Position numbers and translations under genes: made by a program. A stretch of DNA of 30,857 bases from a virus. Every line of letters begins with the position of its first letter. Within the stretch, counting starts at the first letter, position 1. The stretch spans positions 1 to 30,857 of the IMG/VR virus record IMGVR_UViG_3300045921_000619; one strand, 5' to 3'. The notes beneath the pieces are model-generated. The model did not search any database. It worked only from the letters and a program-made list of their open reading frames with translations, and was not told where the DNA came from. This document shows positions 2,825 through 30,303 of the stretch, piece by piece.

Positions 2825-3448
2825 TTAGGGATAGGCGCTTTGGCGAACCTGAGCGGTATCGCAGGCACTAGGGTTAGCCGGGACCAAGCTAGGCGCCTTC
2901 ATGACGGTGGTGAAAGCGGTGCACAAGGGACAATCGTTGAGGTTAAGGGAGTGGCCCACTTCATGCATGCCAACGTCGACGACCTGGGGTGTACTTAGGG
3001 TGTTGTCGATCTCGCAGTTGCCGTGGCCAAGGCGCCAGGTGTTGTGTGCGGTGGACCAACGCCAGTCGAAGACGCAGCGCCCGGAGACCTCAGGCAGTGC
3101 AGCCCAGAGCCACTGAAGCCAGGGGATGAAGGGGGGGTCGTTATTAGGGGGGATGGTTTGCAGTTCGAAGAAGGAAAGATCTGCGTTTGTCGCGGAGTTT
3201 AGGTTCTTCCATTTTGTCTGCGCGGATCGAATGGCATCTGCCTTTTCGGAAGGCCAGTAAGTATAGTTGCCAACGAAAAACCCGTTGTACATGATGTAAG
3301 CGAGTTGCGTTCCGCGAGGCCAAGCCTGAACAGCGCCGGGCGTGACGGTGGCAGGGGGCTGGTTCACGTTGACCTGGCAGGTTTGGGCTGACGCGAAGAA
3401 AGCGCAGAGGAGCAAAGCGGTAGCAATAGCGATGGTTCGGTTGTACAT
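2825..3448 (-). CDS. Secreted metzincin-like metalloprotease, putative
   Basis: 207 residues, starting at the minus-strand ATG 3448-3446; AGGAG is placed 7 bases upstream. Residues 1-22 are a signal peptide (hydrophobic IAIATALLLCAFFASAQT, cleavage probably after the Ala or Gln near 22). H162, E163 and H166 form a zinc-binding HExxH, and D172 falls at the third-ligand position of the HExxHxxGxxH/D metzincin signature; the usual Gly is Asn169. M183 in TTVMKAP fits a Met-turn. Seven cysteines in the mature part suggest an oxidised, exported protein. It should hydrolyse peptide bonds outside the cytoplasm; its substrate is unknown. It is the second gene of a minus-strand pair, 10 bases after the gene ending at 3459. 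Its mixed codon use differs from the phage genes, suggesting host-derived cargo. Confidence 0.75.
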   Translation of the reverse strand: MYNRTIAIATALLLCAFFASAQTCQVNVNQPPATVTPGAVQAWPRGTQLAYIMYNGFFVGNYTYWPSEKADAIRSAQTKWKNLNSATNADLSFFELQTIPPNNDPPFIPWLQWLWAALPEVSGRCVFDWRWSTAHNTWRLGHGNCEIDNTLSTPQVVDVGMHEVGHSLNLNDCPLCTAFTTVMKAPSLVPANPSACDTAQVRQSAYP

Positions 3449-4316: not shown

Positions 4317-4631
4317 ATGCAGAACAATCAAGATCTACCCGTGGATCAGGCGGGGCTGCCGGTGATTGAGCCGGGGCAGACGGTGCGGCAGAATGCGACG
4401 GCGGTGAGCGCGCAGCTGGTGCCGGAAGGCGCTGGATCGAACCGCGTGGCGCGGTTTCTTTGCACGGTGCCGTGCTTTATTCGCTTCGGGCTTGACCCCA
4501 CGGCCACGGTGGACGATCTGCCGCTGGTGGCGAACGTGCCGGAATACTTCGTGGTGCCGGCGGGGCACAAGGTCGCGGTGCTGCGCGGCGGCGGCACAGA
4601 CGGCATTTTGTACGTGACGGTAGCGCAATGA
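4317..4631 (+). CDS. Small hypothetical protein preceding the D,D-peptidase
   Basis: 104 residues. ATG 4317 is preceded by GGAGAG at good distance. The protein has a disordered N-terminus followed by a compact predicted beta-rich domain (RVARFLCTVPCFIRFGL, then EYFVVPAGHKVAVLRGGGTDGILYVTVAQ). This arrangement of a strand, a VPAG turn and a GTDGILYVT strand resembles small virion or fibre-associated beta domains, where a YF-V-PAG-H core is common, but I cannot name the family. Two close cysteines (C49 and C53) could pair or bind metal. Its stop overlaps the next start as ATGA (4628-4631), so translation is coupled to the peptidase. A role in displaying or stabilising that enzyme is plausible inference. 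Confidence 0.65.
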   Translation: MQNNQDLPVDQAGLPVIEPGQTVRQNATAVSAQLVPEGAGSNRVARFLCTVPCFIRFGLDPTATVDDLPLVANVPEYFVVPAGHKVAVLRGGGTDGILYVTVAQ

Positions 4632-5917
4632 TCTATCCGATGGCGCTGGCGGGCCGGGGTCCGCAGGGCGCGGGGGCCTGGGTGCTGGACCCGGTACCGC
4701 CGCCGCTGCCGGAACCGGAACCGGAAGAACCGGAACCGCCGGTGGAGCCGCCGGCGTACGCGTCCGTTGTGCTGGATTTCGCGACGGGCGCGGTGGTGCG
4801 CGGCGTGAACGCGGATGCGGTGCACCCGCAGGCTTCCACCACGAAGCTAATGACGGCGCTGCTGGCGTACGAATCCTGCCCGGCGCTGATGGATACGGTG
4901 GCGATTTCGGCCGCGGCCGAAGCCACGCTGGGATCGCAGGCCTGGCTGTACGAAGGCGAGGTCTACACGCTGAACCAGCTGCTGCTCGCGCTAATGCTGC
5001 CCAGCGGCAACGATGCGGCGCACGCGATCGCGGAGCACGTGGGACAAACGTACCTGGGGGGCACCAGCGCCGCCGATGGGTACGCGCGGTTCGTGGCGCG
5101 GATGAACACGCGGGCGGCCGAACTGGGCATGCTTGCGACGGTCTACATGGAACCCCACGGGGGCACATCGGACCTGGCGCACGTGACCAGTGCGCGCGAC
5201 CTGGCCGTGCTTTGCCGGGCTTGCATGCAGCAGGCGGTGCTGCTGCAGATCGCGGGGACGCTGGAAGTGGGCGCCCTGCCGGTGGCGGGGGGCACGGCGC
5301 GGAAACGCTGGACGAACAACACGCGCTTCCTGGGGCGGTACCCGGGCACGGTGGCCGGAAAGCGGGGATGGAACCCGGCCGCGCTGCATGGCCTGGCGGC
5401 GTTGCACCAGCGGGGAAGCGAATCGCTGGTGGCGGCGGTGCTGCACAGCGCGGATGCGGAAGCGGATGCGGCGGCGGAACTGGACGCGGCCTATGCCGCG
5501 CTGGGCACGCCCCTGGGCGCGCTGGCCGGGCGTGCGGCGGCGCACCACGTCACATGGGCAGGCCAGTGGTATACCTCCGCCTACAATCCGGGCCTTTACC
5601 GCGATGGCTACGGCATGTATTGCACCACGGCCTCGGCGCTGAACAGCGCAAGCTACACCTGGTGGGGAACCGGCGTGCGCATCGTGGGTCCGGTGGGGCC
5701 CAGCTTCGGGCGGATGGACGTATCGGTGGACGGGGGCGCGGTGACGATGGTGGAGCAATACAGCGCGGCGGCGGCAAAGGGCGCGGTACTGCACGAAATC
5801 ACCGGCCTGGCCGATGGTCCGCACAGCCTGCTGCTGCAGGGACGCGCGGACAAGCACGCATCCAGCACCGGGCTGTATCACCTGGCGCTGGACGAATTCG
5901 AGACCGTGCGGAACTAG
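4628..5917 (+). CDS. D-alanyl-D-alanine carboxypeptidase-like (peptidase S11) protein with C-terminal beta domain
   Basis: 429 residues; the start overlaps the preceding stop (ATGA). There is no signal peptide. A proline/glutamate-rich linker (22-42) leads into a penicillin-binding-protein-type domain. S70-T-T-K73 is the SxxK nucleophile motif, S126-G-N128 is SxN, and K245-R-G247 stands where family members have KTG; the segment before it (RFLGRYPGTVAGK) aligns with the usual pre-KTG region. The S11 family trims the terminal D-Ala from peptidoglycan pentapeptides. From about residue 310 a second domain follows (TWWGTGVRIVGP...GRMDVSVDGG), resembling a jelly-roll/carbohydrate-binding unit of tail proteins. 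Lack of an export signal and the tail-like domain suggest a virion or lysis role rather than host wall housekeeping. The Thr-to-Arg change could alter activity or make it a binding protein. Confidence 0.85.
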   Translation: MIYPMALAGRGPQGAGAWVLDPVPPPLPEPEPEEPEPPVEPPAYASVVLDFATGAVVRGVNADAVHPQASTTKLMTALLAYESCPALMDTVAISAAAEATLGSQAWLYEGEVYTLNQLLLALMLPSGNDAAHAIAEHVGQTYLGGTSAADGYARFVARMNTRAAELGMLATVYMEPHGGTSDLAHVTSARDLAVLCRACMQQAVLLQIAGTLEVGALPVAGGTARKRWTNNTRFLGRYPGTVAGKRGWNPAALHGLAALHQRGSESLVAAVLHSADAEADAAAELDAAYAALGTPLGALAGRAAAHHVTWAGQWYTSAYNPGLYRDGYGMYCTTASALNSASYTWWGTGVRIVGPVGPSFGRMDVSVDGGAVTMVEQYSAAAAKGAVLHEITGLADGPHSLLLQGRADKHASSTGLYHLALDEFETVRN

Positions 5918-16441: not shown

Positions 16442-17674
16442 ATGGCATATTCGCTTTCGCGCAATGAGCGCATTTTCGTGCAGAAGCAGACGGATCCGCG
16501 GGTGATTCCGAACACGGCCGGTACCGCCAGCGTGGCGGTGGCGAACTACCTGCGCTTCAAGCAGGCGCAGCTGAACCCGCAGGTGGCGTTGCTGAACCGG
16601 CCGGATAAGACCGGCACGCGCAGCGCGACGCGCGGCGTGCTGGGCCGCAAGGCGGGCAACTGGTCGATCGATCTGAGCTTGGCCACGGCGGGCACGGCGG
16701 GCGTGCTGCCGCCCTGCGATCCCATCCTGGCGGCGCTGTTCGGGCAGAACGGCAGCATCCTGGCGGGCAGCGGCGCGATCACCGGCGCCACGAATGCCAC
16801 GCCGATTGTGGTCAGCCAGGCCGGGCATCCGTACGCGAACGGCGACGTCGTCCTGATCGCGAACGTGGGCGGAAACCTTGGGGCAAACGGCATCTTCGTG
16901 GTGGCGAATGCGGCGGCCGGCACCTACGAACTGCTTGGCTCCAGCGGCACCGGCGCGTACACCAGCGGCGGCACCAGCAGCCGGGTGGGCGTGCGCTACA
17001 GCCTGGCGGACGCGATCCCCAGCTTCGCGATGTACAGCTTCCGGACGCCGGCCAGCTTGCAGCAGCGCTGCGCGTTCGGGTGCGTGGTGACGCAGGCGAC
17101 CTTCAACCTGGGCCAGGACGTGGCGGACTGGCAGGCCAACGGCGAATCCGTGTGGGTGCTGGATTCGGACAGCTTCAGCGGCGCGGACCTGATCCAGAAG
17201 GGCAGCCTGACCAGCTTTCCGGTGGAACCGGTGGGCACGCTGCCCGCCGATGGCGGCATCATTGCCGGGTTCACGGGCCGGGCGGTGATCGCGGGAAGCA
17301 CCATCAGCAACATCCGCCAGGCCACCGTCCAGCTGACCACGGGCAACGTGCTGGTGAAGGACAACTTCGGCAGCTACTACCCGGAAGAAGCCGAGGGCGA
17401 CGAACGCGCGGTGACTGTGAACTTCAGCGTGCATGATCGCGACGACGCTGGCACGAAGGCGCTGTATGCCGCCGCGCTGGCCAAGACGCCGGTGGACCTG
17501 GTGCTGCAGATCGGCACCATCGCGGGCAACGTGTTCGTGTGGCAGTTGCAGGGCGTGGAACTGGGCGACCCGACCTTGGACGATGGGCAGCGCCGCTTCG
17601 TGCGCAGCTACAGCGGCCAGGCGAAGGGCAGCGGCGCCGGCGCGCTGGATGAAGCGAACCTGACGGTGATCTAA
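16442..17674 (+). CDS. Major tail tube protein with inserted FCCH-like beta domain
   Basis: 410 residues; ATG 16442 is preceded by GGGGGGAAGG. The two ends (1-110 and about 183-410) form the tail tube fold, with DRDDAGTKALYAAALA and the strand-rich C-terminus. Between them, residues about 112-180 hold an inserted domain: ITGATNATPIVVSQAGHPYA, NGDVVLIANVGGNLGANGIF, TYELLGSSGTGAYTSGGT. This matches the ubiquitin-activating-enzyme FCCH-type repeat found in many phage structural proteins. It probably decorates the tube surface. Position before the chaperone pair and tape measure supports tube identity. A related module appears in the 27094 protein. Confidence 0.8.
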   Translation: MAYSLSRNERIFVQKQTDPRVIPNTAGTASVAVANYLRFKQAQLNPQVALLNRPDKTGTRSATRGVLGRKAGNWSIDLSLATAGTAGVLPPCDPILAALFGQNGSILAGSGAITGATNATPIVVSQAGHPYANGDVVLIANVGGNLGANGIFVVANAAAGTYELLGSSGTGAYTSGGTSSRVGVRYSLADAIPSFAMYSFRTPASLQQRCAFGCVVTQATFNLGQDVADWQANGESVWVLDSDSFSGADLIQKGSLTSFPVEPVGTLPADGGIIAGFTGRAVIAGSTISNIRQATVQLTTGNVLVKDNFGSYYPEEAEGDERAVTVNFSVHDRDDAGTKALYAAALAKTPVDLVLQIGTIAGNVFVWQLQGVELGDPTLDDGQRRFVRSYSGQAKGSGAGALDEANLTVI

Positions 17675-17698: not shown

Positions 17699-18283
17699 TT
17701 GAACTACGAATCGACGATCACGAAGGAATCGGCGGTCTGCCCGGGCGTGTGGTTCACGTTCCGGCGAATGAGCGAAGGGATGCGTATAGACCTGCGCCGC
17801 AAGCTGGCGGAGGCCTTCGGGCGGCTGCGGGACGTGGCGCAGGATCGCGAGGACTTCAACGCGACGCTGGCCGAGCGCGTGGCGAAGCCACTGGACACCA
17901 TCACCGTGGGCGAACTGACGGCGGCCGAACGGCGGCAGCTGGCGGCGATCGAAGAGCGCCAGGCGCTGGTGCAGGAAACGGAAATCCAGCCGGAGTATTT
18001 CCGGCTGGGCTTCGTGCGCGTGGCGGGCCTGACGATTGATGGCCAGGATCCGGACGGCGCGCTGCTACGGACGGCGGGCCCGCCGGCGCTGGTGCGCGAA
18101 ATCACCGACGCGATTGTGGCCGAAAGCGCGCTGACGCCGGCGGAACGCGAAAATTTCGGATCGCCTACCACTTCTGGCGCACCGGTGGCTGGGCCAACGA
18201 ACGATACCACTGCGCCACTTGCAAGCGGCAGCGATTCCATCTGCAGCGGATCTGCAGGAAGCACTTCGCCGGCGCACCCGTAG
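17699..18283 (+). CDS. Tail assembly chaperone, short (G-type) form
   Basis: 194 residues from TTG 17699, with GGGGGAGG eight bases before it; an ATG at 17694 would stop after two codons. The N-terminal half has WFTFRRMSEGMRIDLRRKLA and a charged helical stretch DREDFNATLAERVAKPLD, then EYFRLGFVRVAGLTIDG. This is the make-up of tail assembly chaperones that coat the tape measure. Past the slippery site AAATTTC (18151-18157) the zero-frame tail is a Ser/Thr/Pro/Gly-rich stretch of about 40 residues that looks non-conserved. Most ribosomes should finish this form; a minority shift to make the longer G-T product. Confidence 0.75.
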   Translation: MNYESTITKESAVCPGVWFTFRRMSEGMRIDLRRKLAEAFGRLRDVAQDREDFNATLAERVAKPLDTITVGELTAAERRQLAAIEERQALVQETEIQPEYFRLGFVRVAGLTIDGQDPDGALLRTAGPPALVREITDAIVAESALTPAERENFGSPTTSGAPVAGPTNDTTAPLASGSDSICSGSAGSTSPAHP

Positions 18284-18591
18284 CGCGGCCGGAAGTGTGG
18301 ATGGCGGATTACCGCGGCGCCGGGGCCGGCGGACGCGGGGGCACGCTGTACACGATCGCAGGCGTCGAAAGCCGGGAATGCCCGGTGTCGCGGATTGACG
18401 AAAGCACGCGGGCGGCCGTCGAGCAGTTCGCGCGCGCCCGGCGCATGAAGGAAGCGACCGGAGCGGCGCCGTGGGGCCCGGACCTATCGGCCTGGCCCGC
18501 GCGGGAAGTGGATCTGTTCGATCTGCTGGAACTGGAACACGCCCGGACGGAGAACGCGCGCTACGAAGCGGAACGGGAATCGAGGGACTGA
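17699..18591 (+). CDS. Tail assembly chaperone, frameshifted (G-T-type) form, made by -1 slip at 18151-18157
   Basis: Shifting one base back at A-AAU-UUC gives a protein of 297 residues: 153 from the zero frame and 144 from the -1 frame, which is open across the junction to the stop at 18591. The extension begins RIAYHFWRTGGWANERYHCA and carries C172, C175, C186 and H189 in a C-x2-C-x10-C-x2-H zinc-finger-like array, then a Gly-rich part and an acidic helical end. An independent start at GTG 18295 would skip the zinc motif and has no good ribosome site. The G/G-T pair between tail tube and tape measure is one of the best conserved frameshift arrangements in long-tailed phages. The long form normally binds the tape measure through its T part. 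Confidence 0.8.
18151..18157 (+). promoter_or_regulatory. Programmed -1 ribosomal frameshift site A-AAT-TTC
   Basis: In the zero frame the codons are GAA AAT TTC; AAATTTC fits the X-XXY-YYZ slippery heptamer exactly. After slipping, AAA TTT CGG continues in the -1 frame to 18591. Seventeen bases further, TGGCGCA (18175-18181) pairs with TGCGCCA (18211-18217), extended by GTGG/CCAC with a 3-base bulge, which could form a stimulatory stem. The spacer is longer than the usual 5-9 bases. Confidence 0.8.
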
Positions 18592-18594
18592 AAG

Positions 18595-21336
18595 ATGGCC
18601 GAATCCGTAGAACTTGTCTTTCGGATGCAGATCGAAGGGCAGCAGCAGTTGGACGCCATCGTGCGATCGGTGCGCGGCATCGCCTCGGAGGTGCGGCAGG
18701 GCGGCAAGCCCATCGAAGACTACGGGCGCGCGTTCGACAAGGCGGCCGAAAAGGCCCGCGTGATGAAGGAAGTGCTGGGCGATACGGCCGCGGCCGCGAA
18801 AGCCAGCACCCAACCCATCACCAACGCCGGCACGGCGGTAACCACGTTCGGGACGGGCCTGCAGGCCCTGCGCGGTGTGCTGGTGGGTGGCGGCATTGCC
18901 ACCACGATCACGGCCGCCGGCAAGGCTGGGTTTGACCTGGTGAAGCAGTTCGGCGCCGCTGCGCAGCAGACCGAGAAGCTGGCCACCAGCCTGGGCATCG
19001 GCATCGCCGAAGCCGAACGCTGGCAGGCCATCACGCGCCTGGCGGGCACCGGCACGAATGGCCTGGAGGCGGCGGCCGGGCGCGTGGCTGCCGCGCTGCA
19101 GGATACCAGTGGCGCGGGCGCGAAGGTGATCGCGGTGCTGCGCGAACTGGGCGTGAACGTGAACACGGCCCGTGGGGAAACCCGCGAATACGGCGCCGTG
19201 GCCCGGGACGCCATCCAGGCGCTTTCGCAGATTGAGGACGCGACCAAACGCTACGCCCTGGCGCAGCGGCTACTGGGCAGCGACGGCGCCAAGCAGATGC
19301 AGCCCGTCCTGGCGCAGTTCCGCGAACTGAACGCGGAGCTGGACCGCCTGGGCATCGGGCTGGATGACAAGCTGACCAAGAACCTGGCCAAGGCCGGGGG
19401 CGAAATCGACAAGCTAAGCCTGGCCTGGGACGCGATCAAACAGAAGCTGGCGGAGGCCATCGCGCCGGTGGTGATTCCCGTGGTGGCCGCGGGCACCGAC
19501 GCCCTGACGGCACAGCGCCGGCCGCAGGATATCGGCGGACGCACCGCTGGCGTGCTGCTGGACGTGCAGGCGCTGAACGGGCGCCCGCAGTTGCCGGCGA
19601 CGATTGCGCAGTACGCCGCAGGCCTGGGCGTGGGCCTGGGGCCGGGCGCGGAAGAAATCGGCCGGACCTTTACCGACGTCCAGGGCCGTTTGCTGGCGGC
19701 GCCGCCGAAGCCCAAACCCGGCCGGGTGGTGGCCGATACGCGCGGCGCGCAGTTCCAATCGCTGATCGATTCGCTGGACGCGCAGGGCCTGGATCCGCTG
19801 GCGAAGCTGATCGAAGACACAGAAAACCGGCTGCAGGCGCTGGTGGCGAAGTATGGTCCGCTGACGGGCGCGGAACAAGCGGCGTTTGGCGGCGCCTTGC
19901 AGGGCGCCTTCCGACGGCAGGCGGGGCGGAATGCGCCGGTATCCAGTGCGGTGGACCTAGGAACCACGGGCTTTCAGTACGGCGGCCTGCGGACGCTGCC
20001 GGTTTCGGCCGAAGTGGATCCGCGGCTGGCCGAAACCACCATCGCGCAGTTCCAGGAACGGCGCGTGCGGGCACTGCAGCAATCCACGAACTTCCAGGAA
20101 CAGATTACGCGGCTGACGGCCGGGCCGGGCGGCGAGCTGGCGGCGATCCAACAGATCGCCCTGCTGCGCGCAGATGCGGCCCAGCGCGAATTCGCCATCA
20201 CGCGCGATCGCGCACGGCTGGAAGAGCAGTTAGACATGGCCCGGAAGGAACGGGTGCTTTCGATTCTGGAGCTGCAGCGGAAGCAACTCGAGGATTACAA
20301 GAACACGGCTGGCCAGGTCTACGATGCGCTGACGCAGCGCGGCGGCGGCGGGCTGCGGGATTTCTTCCGCGGCCAGGCCAACATCCTGCAGCGGCAGTTG
20401 TTCGTGAACGCCAGCGCCGGCATCTTCCAGCGCTTCGGGAGCACCCTGGGCCGGGTGGGCGCGGCCAGCGGGCTGGGTGGGCTGCTTTCCGGGACAATCT
20501 TCGACCCCAAGAACGCCGAAACCGTGACGGCGGCAAACACGACGGCCACCGAACGGAACACGATCGCCCTGGAGCGCAACACGGCGGCCACGGCGGGCGG
20601 CAGGATCGCGGGGCAGATTCCCGGGCTGACCGGCAGCACCGGATTGTCCGGGCTGGGCGGGTTGATTCGTTCGGCGACGCCAGGCAGCAGCGGGAACACG
20701 GGATTGCTGGGCGGCCTGTTCGCGGGGTTATCCAGTCCGTTGACGGCCGGGCTATTCCGCGGATTCCAGGGCGGCGACTATTCGATCGTCACCGGGCCAG
20801 GCACGGCCACCAGTGCTTCGGCGCTGGGGCTGACTTCCACCAGCGCCCGCGTGGCGAACGTGGGCGCATCGGCCGCCATCGTGGCGGGCGGTACCGCTGG
20901 GATTCTTTCGGGGCTACGCCAGGGCGGCGCGCGGGGCACGGCCACGGCGGTGGCCAGCGGCCTGGGCGTGGCTTCCACGATCCCGGGCCCGCAACAGCCC
21001 TTCCTGCAGGCCGCCGCGCTGGTGGCTGGCCTGGTGACGGGACTGTTTCCGGACGCGAAGAAACAGCGTGAAGACGAAATCGGGCGCACGCTGCAGGGCA
21101 GCCGGTACACGGATGCGCTGGGCGTGGACCGGTTTACGGATCAGTACGGCCGCGGCGTGGATTACAACCGCCGCGGCGAAATCCGCGTGCAGCAGCCGGT
21201 GACGGTGAACGTGCAGGCGATGGACGCGAAGGGCTTTCTGGAGCGCGCCGAGGACATCGGCAACGCGGTGAAAGCGGCCCTGCAGGGCGGGCATGACGTG
21301 GCCGATTCGATGCGCGGGCTGGTGTTTGTGCGATAG
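18595..21336 (+). CDS. Tail tape measure protein
   Basis: 913 residues, the second longest gene class in the window; ATG 18595 lies three bases after the chaperone stop. It is Ala/Gly-rich and mostly helical with long coiled-coil segments (for example FDKAAEKARVMKEVLGDTAA; RARLEEQLDMARKERVLSIL). Hydrophobic stretches lie near residues 93-115 and near the C-terminus (AAALVAGLVTGLF). A Thr/Asn-rich repeat near residues 640-665 (NTTATERNTIALERNTAATA) has heptad-like periodicity. The protein spans the tail lumen and sets tail length; by the usual relation of about 1.5 angstrom per residue the tail would be on the order of 130-140 nm. No peptidoglycan hydrolase motif is visible within it. Confidence 0.9.
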   Translation: MAESVELVFRMQIEGQQQLDAIVRSVRGIASEVRQGGKPIEDYGRAFDKAAEKARVMKEVLGDTAAAAKASTQPITNAGTAVTTFGTGLQALRGVLVGGGIATTITAAGKAGFDLVKQFGAAAQQTEKLATSLGIGIAEAERWQAITRLAGTGTNGLEAAAGRVAAALQDTSGAGAKVIAVLRELGVNVNTARGETREYGAVARDAIQALSQIEDATKRYALAQRLLGSDGAKQMQPVLAQFRELNAELDRLGIGLDDKLTKNLAKAGGEIDKLSLAWDAIKQKLAEAIAPVVIPVVAAGTDALTAQRRPQDIGGRTAGVLLDVQALNGRPQLPATIAQYAAGLGVGLGPGAEEIGRTFTDVQGRLLAAPPKPKPGRVVADTRGAQFQSLIDSLDAQGLDPLAKLIEDTENRLQALVAKYGPLTGAEQAAFGGALQGAFRRQAGRNAPVSSAVDLGTTGFQYGGLRTLPVSAEVDPRLAETTIAQFQERRVRALQQSTNFQEQITRLTAGPGGELAAIQQIALLRADAAQREFAITRDRARLEEQLDMARKERVLSILELQRKQLEDYKNTAGQVYDALTQRGGGGLRDFFRGQANILQRQLFVNASAGIFQRFGSTLGRVGAASGLGGLLSGTIFDPKNAETVTAANTTATERNTIALERNTAATAGGRIAGQIPGLTGSTGLSGLGGLIRSATPGSSGNTGLLGGLFAGLSSPLTAGLFRGFQGGDYSIVTGPGTATSASALGLTSTSARVANVGASAAIVAGGTAGILSGLRQGGARGTATAVASGLGVASTIPGPQQPFLQAAALVAGLVTGLFPDAKKQREDEIGRTLQGSRYTDALGVDRFTDQYGRGVDYNRRGEIRVQQPVTVNVQAMDAKGFLERAEDIGNAVKAALQGGHDVADSMRGLVFVR

Positions 21337-27093: not shown

Positions 27094-30000
27094 ATGCCTC
27101 CGCCCACCTGGTCGCAGCCTTCCACGCTGATGAAGCTCGATCCGCGTTGCACGCTGAACCTGCGCGGCTTTGACCGCCGGGGCGCGGCCGCGGCGCTGTG
27201 CCAGGTGACGGCGGACGCCTTCCAGGTGCACGGCGTGTTCCGCGATATGGCGGACTTCGCGGTGCTGAAGATCTGGGACGCGGACAATTTCTTCGAGCAC
27301 TACACGCTGCGCTACCTGCCGGATTTCGACTTCACCGGCGTGGTGCTGACCTTCGATCTGCACTACGCAGGCCTGCAGCCGATCGACAGCCCAAAGTTCA
27401 ACTGGATCGATTGGGCAACGCTGGATTGCGTGCGCGCGGACGGCAGCACGGCCCAGGTGAAGCTGTGGGATACCGCCACGCTGCAGGCGGGCACCTTCAC
27501 GCCGGCGCAGGCCACCGTGACGGTGGTGGACAACGGCCTGCAGGCCTTCGACCGCGTGACGCTGTGGCTGAACAACATCGCCTTCGATTACATCGTGCCG
27601 AACCCGGCCACGGGCGTGACCGCCGCCACGATCGCGGCCGCGCTTCGCGACCAGATCAACACGGCCAACTGGCCGGCGCTTTCGCCGACGCTGGGGCTGA
27701 TCGCAACATCGAGCGGCGCGGCGCTGACGGTGAAGGCCGCGCGCTGGGGCACGGTGAATACCAGCGGCACTGCCGTCACCTGGGCCAGCGGCGAGAAGTT
27801 CACGGCCATCCCGGCGGGCAGCACCATCTGGATCAACGGCACGGCGTACACCGTGGATAGCGTGGCTTCAAGCACTTCCCTGACCCTGACGGCCAGCGCG
27901 GGCACGCAATCGGGCGTGCGCTACCTGGCCGAGCGCGGCGGGCGCGACGGCAACATGCTGACGCTATACGGCCTGTGGAAGAACGCCAACCTGACCTTCG
28001 ACGCCGCCGAATACGCGCTGGCGGGCGGCAGCAGCGATTGCACCTGGCGCGTCGCGATCGACTTCACCGCGCGCGGCGTTGACCAGCTGCGCGAGGCCTG
28101 GCTGACCTTCGCGCCGGCGCTGGCCAACGGCGCCGCCTACGCGGACACGGAATTTGCGGCCACGTTTACCGACTGGGGCTGCACGGATCCGAACGGGAAG
28201 CTGCCGCTGAAGGTGGCGGGCCCGGGCAGCGTGCGCATCGGCAGCCGCGACCGCTGGGCCAGGTTCACCGGGACGGGCTGGGCCGAACAGGACGCGAACA
28301 ACCTGTGGCAGGGCTTCGCGCGGGTTTCGAACACGACCGGCGACCAGCTGCTGATCCGCTACCACTGCCAGCACGCGCATGACCTGTGGCTGGGCACGGC
28401 GCTGTATCGCGACAAGGGCATCGTGCAGGTTTCGCTGGATGGCGACACGCCCACAAACCTGGATTGTTTCCTGGACGTGGAACCGCCGGTGATGACGCGG
28501 CGCCGCGTGCGGGCCGGGGTGGCCGCCGGGCAGCACGAACTGCTGGTGACCGTGACCGGCACGAAGCACGCGGACAGCCTGGGGACCTGGTTCACCTTCG
28601 ATTACCTGGAGGCCGCGGTGGCCGCGGATCCGCCGGCGCCGGCGGCGGCCTATACGAACGTTTCGGCAGCGCTGGATTACGGAACCGACCACACCTACAA
28701 GCTGCCGGCCGGGCGGATCGTGGCGATGCTGGACCGCATGGGCCTGCGCGGGCCGATGAACGAATACGTTTCCGTGTTCTGGTGGAACCAGCGGCAGCGC
28801 GTGGGCGGCGTCTGGAAGACGCTGACGGTGCAGTTCGGCGGCACCTGGGCGGACGGCGACGCGGCCTTTGTCCAGATCGGCGCGTTCACCATGGGCAAGA
28901 GCGTGTTCCCGGCGGACACCATCAGCACCATCGCGGCGCACTTCGCGCACTTCATCAACGGCACGCTGGTGGCGATGTGGGCGGAAACCACGGGCACGGC
29001 GGGCGAACTGCGGATCCACGTGCGGACGCCCATCTGGGGCGATACCCACGAGGTTTCAAAGGTTTCGGCGGCGGGGACCTTCACGACTTCCGGCGACCTT
29101 GCGGTAGGTACGGAAGGCACGTGGGTGGTGGACGATGCCGCCACGCCCGTGCTGAACGTGGCGGCGCGAAAGTGGCATGAGGACTTGTACCACCAGGTGG
29201 CCGCGAAGGGCTGGCAGATCGTTTCTTCGTTTTCGATGGAGCTGGTGAATCCTCCGGAGGGCCCGGGGGCGGTGTGGGCCGCGCGCTACGCGGACGGCAG
29301 CATCGTGGAAACGGACACGGGCTTCGGCGGACTGAAGACCACGCACTGCAGCTTCACCGCGCCGGTGCTGGCCTACCAGAAACAGGCGTTTCTGGAAGCG
29401 GCCGCGCTGATGGACGCGGCGGGCCTGACGCCCTGGCTGCAGTTCGGTGAGTTTCTGTGGTGGTTCTTTTCGTCTGTGGCGCGCAGCGTGGTGGGCGTGA
29501 CGGGCAACCAGATCCAAACCAACACGGCGCACGGCCTGGCTACGGGCGATCGCGCGGTGATCGCGGGAACCCGAGTTCTGGACGGCACGCGCACCATCAC
29601 GGTGACGGGCGCGGACACCTTCACGGTGGACGGCACGGTGCTGCCGGGGGCGTGGACGGGCGCGGGCCAGGTGCGCAGCGGTTCGATGGGCTTCTATGAC
29701 GCCGAAACCACCGCGGCGGCGGCCACGGCGCTGGGCCACGCGCTGACGGTGTTCACCTGCCAGGACGATGATCCGGACGCCTTCCATGGCGGCGCCGATG
29801 CGGCATGGCTAGCTGGGCGCATACGGGCGCATGCAGACGCCATCCGCACACACGTGCAAACCAGCTACCCGGCAGCGAAGTTCGAATGGCTGCACGCCTG
29901 CGATGTCAGCCACCCGCAGTGCTACCACACGCTGGACCGGCCCTTCCCGCAAGGTGGGCGCCTGAACGCCCGGGTTAACACGCCATCCACGTGGACGTCA

Positions 30001-30303
30001 AAAGCAGGCAGCGGCCTGGACCGGATCAAAGTGGAGGCGCTATCGTGGGGATCCTTCTATCGAAACCTGGACCGCGCCGCGCAGGCCTGCGCCTGGCCAC
30101 TGACGGCGCCGCGGGATTGGCCCGCCGCGGATGTGATCTACCTGCTGCCGATCTACAACGGTGGTTGCCCGTGGCAATCGGAGTACCTGCGGGCGCTCAA
30201 TGGAGGTGTGGCAGCAGTGCTCTTCTGGGCATTGGATCACTTGGCGCTGATGAGCTGGCCGCTGCCGCTGCCGAAGAACGGCCGGGGAGCGCGCTTCATT
30301 TAG
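27094..30303 (+). CDS. Large tail protein with FCCH-like insert and TIM-barrel-like C-terminal region
   Basis: 1069 residues from ATG 27094 with AGGA (27083-27086) upstream. The N-terminal 400 residues are beta-rich (NNIAFDYIVPNPATGVTAAT; TVDSVASSTSLTLTASAGTQ). About 690-1066 looks like a TIM-barrel glycoside-hydrolase-type unit: GWQIVSSFSMELVNPPEGP, GLTPWLQFGEFLWWFF, HALTVFTCQDDDPDAF, KFEWLHACDVSHPQCY, DVIYLLPIYNGGCPWQSEYL. An FCCH-like module (about 795-862; VGVTGNQIQTNTAHGLATGD) interrupts this barrel. Acidic residues in FSMELVN and LQFGEFLW lie at strand ends, where barrel hydrolases have catalytic Glu, so surface polysaccharide cleavage is possible. I have a faint memory of such proteins being labelled non-contractile tail sheath. 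A structural role without catalysis fits equally well. Confidence 0.65.
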   Translation: MPPPTWSQPSTLMKLDPRCTLNLRGFDRRGAAAALCQVTADAFQVHGVFRDMADFAVLKIWDADNFFEHYTLRYLPDFDFTGVVLTFDLHYAGLQPIDSPKFNWIDWATLDCVRADGSTAQVKLWDTATLQAGTFTPAQATVTVVDNGLQAFDRVTLWLNNIAFDYIVPNPATGVTAATIAAALRDQINTANWPALSPTLGLIATSSGAALTVKAARWGTVNTSGTAVTWASGEKFTAIPAGSTIWINGTAYTVDSVASSTSLTLTASAGTQSGVRYLAERGGRDGNMLTLYGLWKNANLTFDAAEYALAGGSSDCTWRVAIDFTARGVDQLREAWLTFAPALANGAAYADTEFAATFTDWGCTDPNGKLPLKVAGPGSVRIGSRDRWARFTGTGWAEQDANNLWQGFARVSNTTGDQLLIRYHCQHAHDLWLGTALYRDKGIVQVSLDGDTPTNLDCFLDVEPPVMTRRRVRAGVAAGQHELLVTVTGTKHADSLGTWFTFDYLEAAVAADPPAPAAAYTNVSAALDYGTDHTYKLPAGRIVAMLDRMGLRGPMNEYVSVFWWNQRQRVGGVWKTLTVQFGGTWADGDAAFVQIGAFTMGKSVFPADTISTIAAHFAHFINGTLVAMWAETTGTAGELRIHVRTPIWGDTHEVSKVSAAGTFTTSGDLAVGTEGTWVVDDAATPVLNVAARKWHEDLYHQVAAKGWQIVSSFSMELVNPPEGPGAVWAARYADGSIVETDTGFGGLKTTHCSFTAPVLAYQKQAFLEAAALMDAAGLTPWLQFGEFLWWFFSSVARSVVGVTGNQIQTNTAHGLATGDRAVIAGTRVLDGTRTITVTGADTFTVDGTVLPGAWTGAGQVRSGSMGFYDAETTAAAATALGHALTVFTCQDDDPDAFHGGADAAWLAGRIRAHADAIRTHVQTSYPAAKFEWLHACDVSHPQCYHTLDRPFPQGGRLNARVNTPSTWTSKAGSGLDRIKVEALSWGSFYRNLDRAAQACAWPLTAPRDWPAADVIYLLPIYNGGCPWQSEYLRALNGGVAAVLFWALDHLALMSWPLPLPKNGRGARFI

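Follow-up and report, generated by a model that had tools for sequence, protein, structure and literature searches.

In phage lambda, the G protein binds the tape measure protein and the T part binds the major tail protein, bringing it to the tape measure (PMC5009743). The lambda gene lies between those for the major tail protein and the tape measure, gives a short G product and has a -1 slip site, GGGAAAG, near the end of G. Other long-tailed phages employ other slip sites for such proteins: AAAAAAC and GGGAAAC have been reported for the pre-tape-measure chaperones of phiCbK and Colossus (PMC3556154), and GGGGGAA, the "fivetwo" motif of the SEA-PHAGES chaperones, has been explained by G:U re-pairing (PMC10274946). 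We have also read GGGGGAA in the gp24/gp25 sequence of mycobacteriophage D29. The locus described here resembles that of lambda in its gene position, its short G product, its -1 slip near the G end and the similar length of its T extension. It differs in its slip site (AAATTTC), in the lack of detectable sequence similarity of G and T to any named family and in having four invariant cysteines in T, where the lambda T part has none after the junction.

The locus comes from an IMG/VR virus record (IMGVR_UViG_3300045921_000619), a stretch of 30,857 bases with a GC content of 0.67 that we refer to as the window. Terminase, portal, P22-like coat protein and J-like tail protein are also encoded in it. 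The genes and signals around the junction are the following:

16442..17674, plus strand: the upstream neighbour, a tail (tube-type) protein matching phrog_290 (minor tail, E=3.6e-9) and phrog_584 (major tail, E=7.6e-8)
17699..18283, plus strand: the zero-frame tail assembly chaperone G, with a TTG start, 194 aa and a stop at 18281-18283, identified from its ORF and 12 distinct relatives
18151..18157, plus strand: the -1 slippery heptamer A-AAT-TTC, in phase (GAA AAT TTC) in the ORF between the tail-protein and tape-measure genes
18157..18591, plus strand: the T extension, 144 aa and a stop codon read in the -1 frame (fusion residues 154-297), identified from the open frame, dN/dS and homologues
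18158..18283, plus strand: the dual-coded stretch, the zero-frame tail of G over the start of T, with both frames open
18595..21336, plus strand: the downstream neighbour, the tape measure protein (phrog_8462, E=7e-13)

A place between the tail protein and the tape measure is the classic one for a frameshifted tail chaperone, and the further mark of a G/GT-type gene is likewise present: towards the end of G there is an in-phase -1 slip site, beyond which the -1 frame stays open. The first-pass annotation of this DNA had proposed AAATTTC, in the phase A-AAT-TTC, as the slip site at this junction, and it is indeed found at 18151-18157. As a plain string the heptamer is not rare, with 2 occurrences in the window against 1.35 expected; when heptamers of the type X XXY YYZ (Y being A or T, and Z not G) are counted in phase, that at 18151 is the only one in the likely genes, which comprise 8,287 codon sites. 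Open from 18040, after a TGA at 18037, the -1 frame runs to the TGA at 18589-18591. It provides the 144 codons that had been claimed for it, from 18157 to the stop ending at 18591, and its first ATG, GTG or TTG is GTG 18295, exactly where a gene caller had been predicted to begin, with the loss of the start of T.

The -1 frame evolves as coding sequence. Our comparison pair was the window and the relative L018, whose fusions are 72% identical; simple pairwise dN/dS in overlapping frames is a rough estimate, but the contrast is nonetheless clear, with 0.22 for the T frame versus 1.68 for the zero-frame tail in the dual-coded stretch and, in the distal part of T, 0.19 in the -1 frame versus 2.0 when the zero frame is read through. 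Residues 1-153 of G are common to the G-T fusion and the last 41 form a tail rich in S, T, G, A and P. The AlphaFold model of G is confident to about residue 140 and predicts disorder at 154-193. In the zero-frame tail (window 18158-18280) the S/L-P-T-T-S-G start is kept in nearly all relatives despite this predicted disorder, and the nucleotides of the same stretch are almost invariant among them.

Relatives are encoded by 14 IMG/VR records, besides the near-identical contig L001/L017, and they provide 12 distinct junctions, or 13 with that of the window. Aligning homologues across the junction had been suggested as a check, and in this alignment both the slip site and the frame relation are kept at all 13: relative to G, T invariably occupies the -1 frame, and an in-phase slip site lies no more than one codon from a common aligned position (13/13). 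What the first-pass annotation had named as evidence against its reading, such as homologues lacking the slip site or without conserved cysteines, was not encountered: none of the 13 homologous junctions is without an in-phase slip site, and the cysteines are retained as well. The sequence of the site is nevertheless of five types:

AAATTTC: the window and L018
AAATTTA: L020, L021/L022 and L028
AAAAAAC: L023, L024, L025/L026, L029 and L036
GGGAAAC: L019
GGGGGAA, replacing the canonical heptamer and of the same class as in mycobacteriophages: L027 and L033

On a tree of the fusions, these types require at least four changes of slip site, and no lineage is without one. Two of the search queries included the start of T, which biases them towards conserved junctions; a search with the G part alone, which does not select for the junction, gave 7 loci, all 7 of them with both a slip site and T. 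Some relatives thus share AAAAAAC and GGGAAAC with phiCbK and Colossus, and L027 and L033 share GGGGGAA at the junction with D29 gp24/gp25 and the SEA-PHAGES "fivetwo" class, from which the window differs by its canonical heptamer. In the set of 12 T domains, those of the relatives are 37-73% identical to that of the window. In L028 the T frame opens just 15 nt upstream of the junction and that of L024 lacks any start codon, so that in these two phages T is accessible solely through a change of frame. Among the INPHARED phages, neither the fusion nor the T part found a relative by tblastn, and neither alignment did so in the GTDB genomes, where the narrowness of the search patterns makes this weak evidence of absence. 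Two of the IMG/VR contigs have peculiarities of their own. L029 has a second frame change at about 3070-3120, some 25 codons into T, with the conserved T sequence continuing in the third frame, and this is either a sequence error or a broken gene; L006 (3606-4200) has, compared with the window, extra small ORFs between the tail protein gene and G.

Neither the G part nor the T part has a significant Pfam, PHROGs or NCBIfam match, and fold searches with the models of both gave no significant match among solved structures. One relative matches the phrog_344 tail assembly chaperone, at an E-value of only 0.049. Membership of a named family is not needed for the frameshift mechanism, and tail chaperones diverge strongly in sequence.

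Considering its position, its slip site and its two reading frames, the locus is very probably a lambda G/GT-type tail assembly chaperone gene with a programmed -1 frameshift. We infer that ribosomes slip here at a rate such that the majority would complete the 194-aa G and a minority, slipping back by one base on A-AAT-TTC, would make a 297-aa G-T fusion that begins with residues 1-153 of G. If the proteins work as in lambda, the product of the next gene downstream, the tape measure protein, would be coated by the G part, and the tail tube protein, from the gene just upstream, would be brought in by the T part; neither product would remain in the finished tail. With regard to stimulators, the RNA downstream of the slip site folds no better than expected by chance (z -0.32). 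A downstream 4-bp hairpin and an H-type pseudoknot were considered and rejected: they fit 93% of the cells, but the columns are mostly invariant, compensatory changes and covariation are absent and the folding is at chance level. An upstream Shine-Dalgarno-like stimulator was also rejected as inconsistent.

Could the -1 ORF instead be a separate gene that begins at its own GTG 18295 by reinitiation, the heptamer being incidental? This GTG sits 11 bases past the stop of G, where ORF callers start, but among the 46 residues that precede it are the best-conserved ones of T (A-Y-H-F, GG and three invariant cysteines), and this segment shows selection in the -1 frame; moreover, the first in-frame start is shifted or missing in relatives, whereas slip sites are retained at every junction. 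We consider a separate gene very unlikely. An RNA polymerase, rather than a ribosome, might slip to produce the fusion, and A-runs such as AAAAAAC in some of the relatives could permit this, but at AAATTTC, AAATTTA and GGGAAAC there is no homopolymer longer than four bases, which makes polymerase slippage extremely improbable as the source. As for the notion that a sequencing or assembly error has split one continuous gene, a single wrong base count could make such a split and L029 does have its second frame change inside T. The homologues refute it, however: 13 distinct sequences, drawn from many metagenomes, show the same frame relation at the same codon, each with a slip site, and the near-identical contig L001/L017 matches base for base over 2,300 bases; the probability of such an error is practically nil.

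The programmed frameshift is, as a mechanism, of an ordinary and known kind, and it is the four-cysteine T domain that is the new part of this system. Its conserved cysteines are encoded as follows:

18211..18222, plus strand: C172-x2-C175, the first half of the candidate metal site (invariant in 12/12 T domains)
18253..18255, plus strand: C186, the third invariant cysteine (12/12)
18379..18381, plus strand: C228 in the ECPVS motif, the probable fourth ligand (12/12)

The first-pass annotation had described a zinc-finger-like C-x2-C-x10-C-x2-H array here, and it located C172, C175, C186 and H189 correctly in the window. The three cysteines of this array prove to be invariant, but only 2 of the 12 T domains have His at position 189, with Tyr there in 9 and Arg in 1. 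The histidine is thus not conserved and C-x2-C-x10-C-x2-H is not a signature of the family. C228, which was absent from that description, proves to be invariant, and the candidate metal site is accordingly of a Cys4 (C172, C175, C186, C228) rather than a C3H type. Judged from the alignment, T has the four conserved potential metal ligands that a zinc treble clef or zinc ribbon would need. The AlphaFold model of the window's T, of moderate confidence, has C228 where a beta hairpin ends, ahead of a helix, a predicted placement compatible with a treble clef; the other four T models are poor (mean pLDDT 45-58). When the T profile was compared with the PDB, the only matches at E<=10 were to eL24/TRASH-type zinc proteins, the best of them borderline (E=0.015), covering a stretch that starts ahead of C186 and extends over the conserved W and Y-R. 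Foldseek with the T model gave no zinc-domain match. The eL24/TRASH proteins are a treble-clef zinc family, and in TRASH domains a helix cysteine is paired with a nearby ligand. In the T domains described here, unlike in these proteins, the position of the nearby ligand is Y/H/R and the fourth cysteine comes 42 residues on, and any homology to eL24/TRASH is tentative.

We lean towards metal binding by the four-cysteine T part; T is a new sequence family that probably folds around a metal ion, most likely zinc. The alternative, to which we give appreciable but lesser weight, is that the frameshift is real but that the four cysteines bind no metal and have a structural or other role. The lack of a confident zinc-family match, the long spacing (41 residues) from C186 to C228 and the only moderately confident T structure model speak for such a role. 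On the other hand, all four cysteines are invariant at 37-52% identity, disulfides are unlikely given that an assembly factor is presumably cytoplasmic, and the sole PDB sequence matches at E<=10 are of the eL24/TRASH type, from a treble-clef zinc family. If T does bind zinc, a Cys4 zinc site could be the core of the T domain in this uncultured phage lineage, and the frameshift could set how much is made of an adaptor that depends on metal and brings the tail tube protein to the tape measure, perhaps through an eL24-like treble clef; we rate this full scheme at even odds.

A cysteine motif at the start of T had been thought atypical, and the small sample of described systems that we have compared agrees with this, there being no cysteine pairs in T of lambda, HK97, P2, D29 or phiCbK (n=5). 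The T parts of lambda, P2, D29 and phiCbK, unlike that of the window, have no cysteine after the junction and the T-frame ORF of HK97 has a single one near its start. In the open-licence literature, we found no relevant report of zinc in tail chaperone T domains. The window adds to the phages with frameshifted tail chaperones an uncultured lineage that is unrelated in sequence to the named families, and it shows five interchangeable types of slip site at one aligned junction. The invariant cysteines offer a simple way to test how a T domain functions. Ordinary gene calling would lose the best-conserved region of this protein.

Elsewhere in the window, an ORF at 27094-30303 has matches to a non-contractile tail sheath TIM-barrel domain (E=5e-12) and to the corresponding N-terminal domain (E=2e-6), in a record that likewise carries tape measure and J-like tail genes. 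Finally, a D-Ala-D-Ala carboxypeptidase (Peptidase_S11, E=3e-31) is encoded at 4628-5917, immediately before the gene for the large subunit of the terminase.
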